The notes beneath the pieces are model-generated. The model saw only the letters and a list, made by a program, of their open reading frames with translations. It was not told the DNA's origin and ran no database searches. Shown piece by piece: positions 30,560-32,297 of a stretch of 32,297 bases of DNA (the stretch's first letter is position 1; the number at the start of each line of letters is the position of its first letter). The stretch is from Burkholderiales bacterium (GTDB lineage: Bacteria > Pseudomonadota > Gammaproteobacteria > Burkholderiales > Burkholderiaceae_E): assembly GCA_947463885.1 (NCBI GenBank), contig CANHUQ010000009.1, forward strand, positions 1 to 32,297, in the 5' to 3' direction. The position numbers and the translations under genes were made by a program.

Positions 30560-31774
30560 ATGACCGAGGGGCCGCTGTCATCCGAGGTGTCCGCGCTTCG
30601 GTTGGGAATGGTGGCAGGTGAAACCTCCGGCGACATGCTGGCGGCATCGGTGCTGGCGGGCCTGACACAGCGGCTCAGCGGTGCCCCCTCCGATCCCGCG
30701 ATCATTGCCAGGCCTGTACACGCCGCAGGCATCGGCGGGCCGGCCATGCGTGATCAGGGCTTTGACCCATGGTGGTCCTCAGAGGAACTTGCGGTGCGCG
30801 GCTATGCTGAGGTGCTGCGTCAATACCCCCGCTTGCGCAGTATTCGCAATCGAGTGTTCGAGCGCATGTGCGACTGGCGCCCCGATGTGTTCGTCGGCGT
30901 CGATGCGCCCGATTTCAATCTGGACCTGGAGCGGCGGCTGCGGGCATCAGGCCTGCGGGTGGCGCATTTCATCGGGCCGTCGATCTGGGCCTGGCGCGGC
31001 GAGCGCATCCACGCCATCGGTCGCTCGGTCGACCATATGCTGCTGGTGTTTCCCTTCGAAAAGCCGCTCTACGATGCGGCAGGGATCGCCGCCACATACG
31101 TGGGGCATCCTCTGGCCGACGCCATTCCCTTGCAGGCCGATCAGGCCGGCGCCCGACGCGTGCTGAACCTGCCCGCCGACCGGCAGATCGTCGCGGTCCT
31201 GCCGGGCAGCCGAGGCGGCGAGATCACCTACATTGCGCCGTGTTTCGTGCAGACCATCGCCTGGCTGGCGCAACAGCGCCCCGAGCTGGTCTTCGTGGTG
31301 CCGGCCGCCACAGAGCGTCTGTTTGCACGGCTGCGCGCCATGATTGCGGCTGCAGGGTTGCCCGATGGCGTGGACTGCCGGCTGGTGATGGGTCATTCCC
31401 ATGAAGCCATCGCCTCGGCCGATGCGGTCCTGGTGGCCAGTGGCACGGCCACCCTTGAAGTGGCGCTGTTTCGCAAACCCATGGTGATTGCCTACCGCAT
31501 GGCCTGGGCCAGCTATCAGATCATGAAGCGCATGGGCTATCTGCCCTGGATCGGCCTGCCCAACATCCTGTGCAACGCCTCGGTGGTGCCGGAGTTCGTG
31601 CAATCGGCTGCGACTGCGCCTGCCATGGGTGCAGCGCTGCTGCGGCAATTGGACGATCCGGCGCATGCGCGTGAGCTGGCCGAGCGCTTTGCGGCGCTGC
31701 ACGAGACGCTGCGCTGCAACTGCGGGCAACGCGCGGCCGACGCGTTGCTTGAACTGTCGCGTCGACCCGCATGA
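30560..31774 (+). CDS. lpxB: Lipid-A-disaccharide synthase
   Basis: Peripheral membrane GT19 glycosyltransferase joining UDP-2,3-diacylglucosamine and lipid X into the beta-1,6 disaccharide. The 404 residues show LGMVAGETSGDMLAA near the start, IGGPAMRDQGFD, FVGVDAPDFNLDLE and the conserved FIGPSIWAWRGERI. Later come VGHPLADAIPL, VLPGSRGGEITY and LVASGTATLEVALF with PMVIAYRM. It lies 11 bp after lpxA. Its TGA at 31772-31774 sits in the first unit of the 14-bp array, overlapping an ATG at 31771. Confidence 0.97.
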   Translation: MTEGPLSSEVSALRLGMVAGETSGDMLAASVLAGLTQRLSGAPSDPAIIARPVHAAGIGGPAMRDQGFDPWWSSEELAVRGYAEVLRQYPRLRSIRNRVFERMCDWRPDVFVGVDAPDFNLDLERRLRASGLRVAHFIGPSIWAWRGERIHAIGRSVDHMLLVFPFEKPLYDAAGIAATYVGHPLADAIPLQADQAGARRVLNLPADRQIVAVLPGSRGGEITYIAPCFVQTIAWLAQQRPELVFVVPAATERLFARLRAMIAAAGLPDGVDCRLVMGHSHEAIASADAVLVASGTATLEVALFRKPMVIAYRMAWASYQIMKRMGYLPWIGLPNILCNASVVPEFVQSAATAPAMGAALLRQLDDPAHARELAERFAALHETLRCNCGQRAADALLELSRRPA

Positions 31775-31817
31775 GGTTAGCTGCATGAGGTTGCCCGCAT
31801 GAGGTTACCCGCATGAA
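31766..31817 (+). repeat. 14-bp tandem array of coupled start/stop mini-cistrons between lpxB and rnhB
   Basis: There are about 3.7 copies of a 14-bp unit close to CCCGCATGAGGTTA: 31766-31779 (exact), 31780-31793 (three differences), 31794-31807 (exact), and 31808-31821 whose first ten bases match. ATGs lie at 31771, 31785, 31799 and 31813. The first three open five-codon frames, MRLAA, MRLPA and MRLPA, and each TGA overlaps the next ATG as ATGA. GAGG in each unit lies 8 nt before the next ATG. The last ATG is the rnhB start. Confidence 0.9.
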
Positions 31818-32297
31818 GCGGCCCGAGCGTGTCACCACCCCGGCGCCGGTTGCCGGTTCGCCCACCCAGCCCTCGCTGCTGGTCTGGGCCGACGACGCGG
31901 GCCTGATTTGCGGCGTGGATGAGGCCGGGCGCGGCCCGCTGGCAGGGCCGGTGACCGCAGCGGCCGTCATCCTGAATCCGATGCGCCCGATCGATGGCCT
32001 GCGTGACTCCAAGCAATTGTCAGCCGCCCGGCGCGATGCGCTCGCCGAGCAGATTCGAGCCTGTGCGCTCGGATGGGCGGTGGCCAGCGCCAGCGTGGAA
32101 GAAATCGACGCGCTGAACATTCTTCAGGCAAGCCTGCTGGCCATGCGTCGGGCCGTGTTGGCGCTGCCGCAGGCGCCCGAACTGGCGCGCGTTGATGGCA
32201 ATCGTGCGCCGGTGTTGCCCTGCCGAATCGAGTTGATCGTGGGCGGCGATGCCATCGATCCGGCGATCAGCGCCGCCTCGATCCTGGCCAAGACCAC
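31813..32297 (+). CDS. rnhB: Ribonuclease HII, partial (C-terminus beyond right edge)
   Basis: Cleaves RNA in RNA-DNA hybrids and starts ribonucleotide excision repair. About 161 N-terminal residues are visible of an expected 220-240. The type-2 RNase H motif [14 protein letters not shown] supplies D36 and E37, RDSKQLS follows, and VDGN gives D129. The final AASILAKT begins the next conserved active-site segment. About 33 residues precede the core, more than in E. coli. No in-frame alternative start lies upstream, because a TGA occurs at 31786. The start is preceded by GAGG at 8 nt within the 14-bp repeat array. Confidence 0.95.

Follow-up and report, generated by a model that had tools for sequence, protein, structure and literature searches.

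Tandem 14-bp start-stop units at the lpxB/rnhB junction of a Burkholderiales bacterium and related chains before other genes

Neighbouring same-strand genes that share the tetranucleotide ATGA, in which the stop codon of the first overlaps the start codon of the second, are an established case of translational coupling (Huber et al. 2019, PMC6728339; review: PMC12548453). As described in the cited passages, a Shine-Dalgarno motif often lies within the upstream frame, and coupling has been proposed to proceed by reinitiation or by unfolding (PMC6728339, PMC12548453). For neighbouring bacterial genes the choice between reinitiation by the same ribosome and entry of new ribosomes into unfolded RNA is presented as unsettled (PMC12548453, PMC7538156), and for E. 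coli it has been argued that reinitiation is not a major coupling mechanism (PMC7538156). Among repeated elements, mycobacterial interspersed repetitive units (MIRUs) are described as inserting at start codons and as bringing with them an ORF whose coupling to the following gene start is at -4 nt (PMC12548453); at senX3-regX3 they form tandem units of 77 and 53 bp that differ between two strains (PMC4213456). Short leader ORFs (uORFs) are reviewed as delivering ribosomes and as being used in biotechnology (PMC12548453). A literature search of titles and abstracts, with most subscription journals outside its coverage, found neither tandem 14-bp start-stop chains nor a rule that unit length be 3n+2 bp.

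The lpxB/rnhB junction

The window analyzed here is a 32,297-nt stretch of contig CANHUQ010000009.1. A first-pass annotation of its sequence had described three five-codon ATGA mini-cistrons between lpxB and rnhB; all three were confirmed at the positions given below, and Pfam supports both flanking genes.

30560..31774, plus strand: lpxB, ORF with a match to Pfam LpxB (4.2e-89); its TGA (31772-31774) overlaps the ATG of mini-cistron 1
31765..31816, plus strand: 14-bp tandem array reported by Tandem Repeats Finder, 3.7 copies, consensus ACCCGCATGAGGTT
31771..31788, plus strand: mini-cistron 1, ATGAGGTTAGCTGCATGA, MRLAA and stop; without a Shine-Dalgarno core upstream
31785..31802, plus strand: mini-cistron 2, ATGAGGTTGCCCGCATGA, MRLPA and stop; GAGG 8 nt upstream
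31799..31816, plus strand: mini-cistron 3, ATGAGGTTACCCGCATGA, MRLPA and stop; GAGG 8 nt upstream
31801..31804, plus strand: GAGG, Shine-Dalgarno-like, 8 nt before the rnhB ATG, spanning the final ATG base and the second codon of mini-cistron 3; read from the sequence
31813..32297, plus strand: rnhB, ORF running off the window, with a match to Pfam RNase_HII (1.2e-26)

The 4-nt same-strand stop/start overlap of the ATGA type is found at all four steps between 31771 and 31816, with mini-cistron TGAs at 31786, 31800 and 31814, the last of which overlaps the rnhB ATG at 31813. lpxB and rnhB themselves do not overlap, the rnhB start lying 42 nt past the first ATG (31771), and ATG 31813 is the sole ATG, GTG or TTG between the last in-frame stop of rnhB (31786) and its conserved GVDEAGRG motif. 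The first-pass annotation had assigned a GAGG to every unit. Such a sequence does lie 8 nt ahead of the ATGs at 31785, 31799 and 31813, built in each case from the preceding unit's second codon and the G of its ATG, but none lies ahead of 31771. Since each unit carries its GAGG 8 nt before the next ATG, duplication made the start of one frame a ribosome-binding sequence for the next. It had also been pointed out that each start is in a new frame and that every frame closes exactly at the following start; this is true, but it is the arithmetic of a period of 14 = 3x4+2 (14+1=15) and adds no further coincidence. No Rfam family matched 31400-32297 at the gathering score, and the predicted RNA fold of 31735-31855 is unremarkable (z-score -1.39).

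Tandem Repeats Finder reports 31765-31816 with a period of 14 (84% matches, score 83) and, alternatively, with a period of 28 (score 85), and the two readings together make up the top-scoring tandem array of the window. Units 1-3 are mutually identical at 11-13 of 14 positions, i.e. they differ at 1-3, and the rnhB start resembles a decayed fourth copy, with 7-10 of 14 positions identical. The divergence of the units indicates that the slippage is not brand new. Given the base composition of the window, the expected number per 3.6 Mb is 0.04 for three ATGAs in 14-bp steps and 7e-5 for four; the genome has three such loci. The array lies about 480 bases from the window end, and the source assembly is a draft of 354 contigs, the one genome of its species; a repeat-collapse artefact of draft assembly is unlikely, since the array units differ.

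A search of 61 genomes yielded lpxB in 59; a second collection contributed its best 80 of 164 confirmed loci. Besides the window's own, 108 lpxB 3' ends were readable (9 of them congeneric); one further locus cut by a contig end (L012) was excluded, and one of the 108 (L025) is partly N-masked. An ATGA chain of equal period (8-20) between -60 and +150 of the lpxB stop was present at none of these 108 ends, whatever the downstream gene, so the array is derived and arose in this lineage. The 161 bp round the junction gave one match in their own genome at E<=0.001, with no dispersed related copies. The near-identity of the units and their absence from all 108 other lpxB 3' ends lend good support to the earlier proposal that an ATGA junction was amplified by slippage.

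Recurrence before other genes

The lpxB/rnhB architecture is not unique and recurs before many different genes in related bacteria. The same genome contains three 14-bp ATGA-chain loci, the other two, ahead of genes for an M81 peptidase and a DUF3617 protein, having unit sequences different from that at lpxB/rnhB. Period-14 ATGAGG chains occur in 10 of 74 genomes of the family, and generic ATGA chains of period 14 in 38 of the 74, versus 17 for period 13. A search with variable gaps identified 14 as the commonest equal period in the family, mostly at gene starts; other periods fell mostly in non-coding DNA or within reading frames. Beyond the family, four genomes have period-14 ATGAGG chains among the matches listed for 399 genomes sampled across the order; these chains lie at or near gene junctions (e.g. 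flgJ/flgK-like and peptide-transporter permease/ATPase-like, judged by eye from the translations). A fifth place outside the family (G358) was rejected as a 7-bp repeat. A control with the reversed pattern gave zero in every genome for the ATGAGG period-14 search, and several-fold lower counts in most genomes for another search, but it is not relied on, as reversed letters need not be equally common.

Among the 37 period-14 gene-start chains defined in the next section, a Pfam match was obtained for 32 of 33 downstream ORFs scanned, the families including cytidylate kinase, GatB, GreA/GreB-type, IspF (YgbB; with IspD upstream of the chain), MlaE, arginase and glutaredoxin. The first ATGA also closes a good upstream frame, as in lpxB, in only 12 of the 37; the remaining chains begin after the upstream gene or out of frame with it, several of them shortly past its stop, and hence need not be fed by a terminating ribosome. 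A 4-nt Shine-Dalgarno core is likewise present in the last unit of only 12 of the 37 (32%, versus 22% in shuffled units), which indicates that a strong Shine-Dalgarno site is not required; Shine-Dalgarno spacing as the sole cause of period 14 was rejected because 25 of the 37 last units lack the core.

The longest chain followed (L277:1503-1632) comprises nine mini-cistrons joined by eight links of 14 and one of 17, and lies between genes of the glycosyltransferase-9 and group-1 glycosyltransferase types; two further long chains have six mini-cistrons (one TTG start) and five (one GTG start). Three other chains depart from 14 after a series of such links, and their first deviating link measures 26, 11 or 38 nt; each value is 3n+2, but this alone proves little, since the script followed no link of another form. 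An orthologous livH/livM chain is found in three species of one genus. Between two species its 32 nt are identical, against 99 differences in 1168 flanking positions; some 2.7 changes are expected in 32 nt, so the conservation is suggestive only. Another pair of orthologous chains (L216 and L218, genomes G007 and G008), with four versus three ATGs, was considered as a case of copy-number change and rejected, as the alignment reveals one decayed unit and a similar total length.

Several further loci are recorded as observations. Two 14-bp chains on the minus strand (L181, L212) have one unit starting with TTG or GTG and keep the period; their downstream genes are, from the translations, an ABC-transporter ATPase-like and a metal-transport-ATPase-like gene. 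A 14-bp ATGA chain with diverged units precedes a GreA/GreB-family gene at three loci in two genera (L225, L266, L270), by either old inheritance or repeated origin. About fourteen near-identical 11-bp ATGAGGTGGCA units on the minus strand at L182 provide 15 ATGs, each unit being a closed four-codon frame, and the last ATG is followed by a frame of just five codons. At an apparently common locus of five congeneric genomes (L300, L302, L305, L357, L358) an 11-bp ATGA chain precedes a 35-codon frame containing PTRPYLSSKRTM, which could be a small gene or a leader. Two 12-bp in-frame chains at apparent gene starts (L142 and L189, the latter before a gene that is sdhA-like by eye) would add repeated N-terminal residues.

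Unit length and gene starts

Chains of at least three equally spaced ATGAs were collected from the 74 family genomes, with full lists for periods 11, 13, 14 and 17; periods 15 and 16 were taken from the matches listed (30 loci, the listed 16-bp places, the 15-bp places repeat-like by eye and two others). For all periods a gene start was called on two conditions: the frame beginning at the last ATG runs for 70 codons or more and has the best GC3-GC2 of all six frames, and an in-frame stop is present upstream of that ATG, no more than 75 nt ahead of the chain. Chains were classed as repeat-like if two adjacent units are at least half identical outside the ATGA.

Before this similarity filter, chains ending on gene starts numbered 38 of 63 (period 14), 2 of 25 (13), 12 of 49 (11) and 7 of 21 (17), and, among the matches listed, 2 of 48 (15) and 2 of 8 (16). 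Repeat-like chains end exactly on a gene start in 37 of 58 cases for period 14, 1 of 20 for 13, 8 of 25 for 11 and 5 of 11 for 17, and, among the matches listed, in 2 of 33 for 15 and 0 of 2 for 16. Lengths of the form 3n+2 thus make up 50 of the 53 repeat-like gene-start chains (versus the rest, Fisher P=5e-10, with periods 15 and 16 from the matches listed; 14 vs 13, P=3e-6; 14 vs 11, P=0.009). The repeat-like arrays away from gene starts, obtained by subtraction, are nearly equal in number at periods 11 (17), 13 (19) and 14 (21), so 14 is not a length that slippage as such prefers, and a general preference of this kind was rejected.

Some decisions affect these counts. One chain (L273, unit similarity 0.4) is excluded from the 37, the livH/livM chain of three species enters as one count, and L275 is kept, an N run beginning just past its last ATG. 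The members of four ortholog pairs (L216/L218, L260/L262, L266/L270, L224/L271) were counted singly and are not independent; merging them reduces 37 to 33, i.e. 33 versus 1 for 14 versus 13. Among the eight 11-bp calls, the position at which the Pfam domain begins makes a later true start probable for L313 and L343; L353, also one of the eight, and L329, one of the five 17-bp calls, had no Pfam match.

The 77- and 53-bp units given for the senX3-regX3 MIRUs (PMC4213456) are both 3n+2, consistent with the length rule. In viral contigs gene-start chains were found in 2 of 27 cases for period 11, 1 of 14 for 13, 6 of 45 for 14, 2 of 10 for 16 (two related contigs) and 3 of 7 for 17, and, among the matches listed, in 0 of 90 for period 12 and 1 of 82 for 15, a weak trend in the same direction as in the family. 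Where one ATGA alone precedes a gene start, 3n+2 distances are not clearly in excess over 3n+1 (7 vs 11 and 12 vs 6). Frame closure does not account for the peak at 14 over 11 or 17; our guess is that 14 is the shortest 3n+2 unit that holds a ribosome-binding site through to the start, and that longer duplications are rarer.

Interpretation and comparison with described systems

The best explanation, to which we give a probability of about two in three, is that replication slippage of a 14-bp unit multiplied an ATGA junction with a 4-nt lpxB/rnhB overlap in this lineage, and that units of 3n+2 bp are tolerated because the inner ATGs are used. lpxB always stops at the first ATGA and rnhB always starts at the last ATG, so a duplication of any length spares both genes. 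A ribosome starting at an extra ATG, on the other hand, would be brought to the following start only by units of 3n+2 bp; with other lengths it would read out of frame past the true start or add residues to the protein. Slippage duplications at gene starts may thus survive mainly if ribosomes from the extra ATGs terminate on the next start. The first-pass annotation had ribosomes starting at the inner ATGs, and the length rule obeyed by the gene-start arrays of the family supports this indirectly: only ribosomes starting there, by reinitiation or by fresh entry, would sense the 3n+2 length. As only 12 of the 37 chains are lpxB-like, the rule concerns such ribosomes whatever their route. At lpxB/rnhB, ribosomes ending lpxB would start at ATG 31771 by termination-reinitiation or local re-entry and then, we infer, pass serially through the mini-cistrons until they reach rnhB; the GAGG that duplication set 8 nt before each later ATG may admit further ribosomes. 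The simplest account would be a translation-compatible, nearly neutral duplication that also gave rnhB its Shine-Dalgarno sequence.

Several other readings have to be weighed against this one. We consider it improbable that the array is an adaptive, slippage-variable module whose unit number sets RnhB output, which would fall with each reinitiation step or rise with the number of entry sites: a GAGG in each unit, a range of two to nine mini-cistrons and the suggestive constancy of the livH/livM chain would suit such a control, but the diverged units speak against very recent slippage, the other lpxB 3' ends have no chain, the downstream genes are functionally diverse, and most last units lack a Shine-Dalgarno core. 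Quite unlikely, in our estimate, are silent inner ATGs, with period 14 arising from slippage between a Shine-Dalgarno sequence and an ATGAGG or ATGAGC start (natural spacing about 14 nt) and closure as a by-product. The unit of the flgJ/flgK-like locus (L179, by eye) is indeed exactly a Shine-Dalgarno sequence, a spacer and an ATG, and ATGAGG units place GAGG 8 nt from the next ATG; however, natural Shine-Dalgarno-to-start spacing varies by several nt, so periods 13 and 15 should be common and are seen at gene starts in 1 of 20 and, among the matches listed, 2 of 33 cases, 17-bp gene-start chains are not expected, and 25 of the 37 last units have no core, its frequency being 32% against 22% in shuffled ones. 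Chance or a short-repeat assembly artefact, to which a draft assembly and a single genome of the species lend some room, is very improbable in view of the 7e-5 expected per genome by base composition, the differences between units and the same architecture in other genomes, including the orthologous livH/livM chain.

Beyond the slippage-amplified junction with used inner ATGs, we tentatively raise a broader view, which seems to us possible though rather doubtful from sequence data: start-stop minisatellites may be general, repeatedly evolved translational elements of 3n+2 tandem units (mostly 14 bp) that impose serial termination-reinitiation up to nine times before a gene. Reinitiation would then have left its evolutionary trace in the length rule, and slippage would adjust operon stoichiometry by changing copy number. 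Because its effects multiply, a series of n near-identical start-stop units offers a natural test of the coupling mechanism: serial reinitiation predicts an output that drops as the n-th power of the step efficiency, and independent entry predicts no such fall. From sequence alone, the 3n+2 rule is evidence for the use of extra starts immediately ahead of genes, and it could aid the annotation of true starts and coupled operons.

The junction shares the 4-nt overlap with ATGA coupled pairs, but here the overlap is tandemly repeated, with three extra five-codon cistrons between the genes; chains or a length rule are not described for such pairs in the cited passages (PMC6728339, PMC12548453). 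Like mycobacterial MIRUs, it has a short ORF whose coupling to the adjacent gene is at -4 nt. The MIRUs, as far as these sources describe them, are longer, apparently mobile and repeated in the genome (PMC12548453, PMC4213456), whereas the 14-bp unit here is an apparent product of local slippage. Instead of a unit of tens of bp with related dispersed copies, we find 14 bp and a unit sequence that differs at each locus. Short leader ORFs, whose biotechnological use is known as 'bicistronic design', are similar in that a ribosome could be passed on from a very short ORF to the start coupled to it. They are described as single leader cistrons (PMC12548453), whereas three stand in series here, and up to nine elsewhere.
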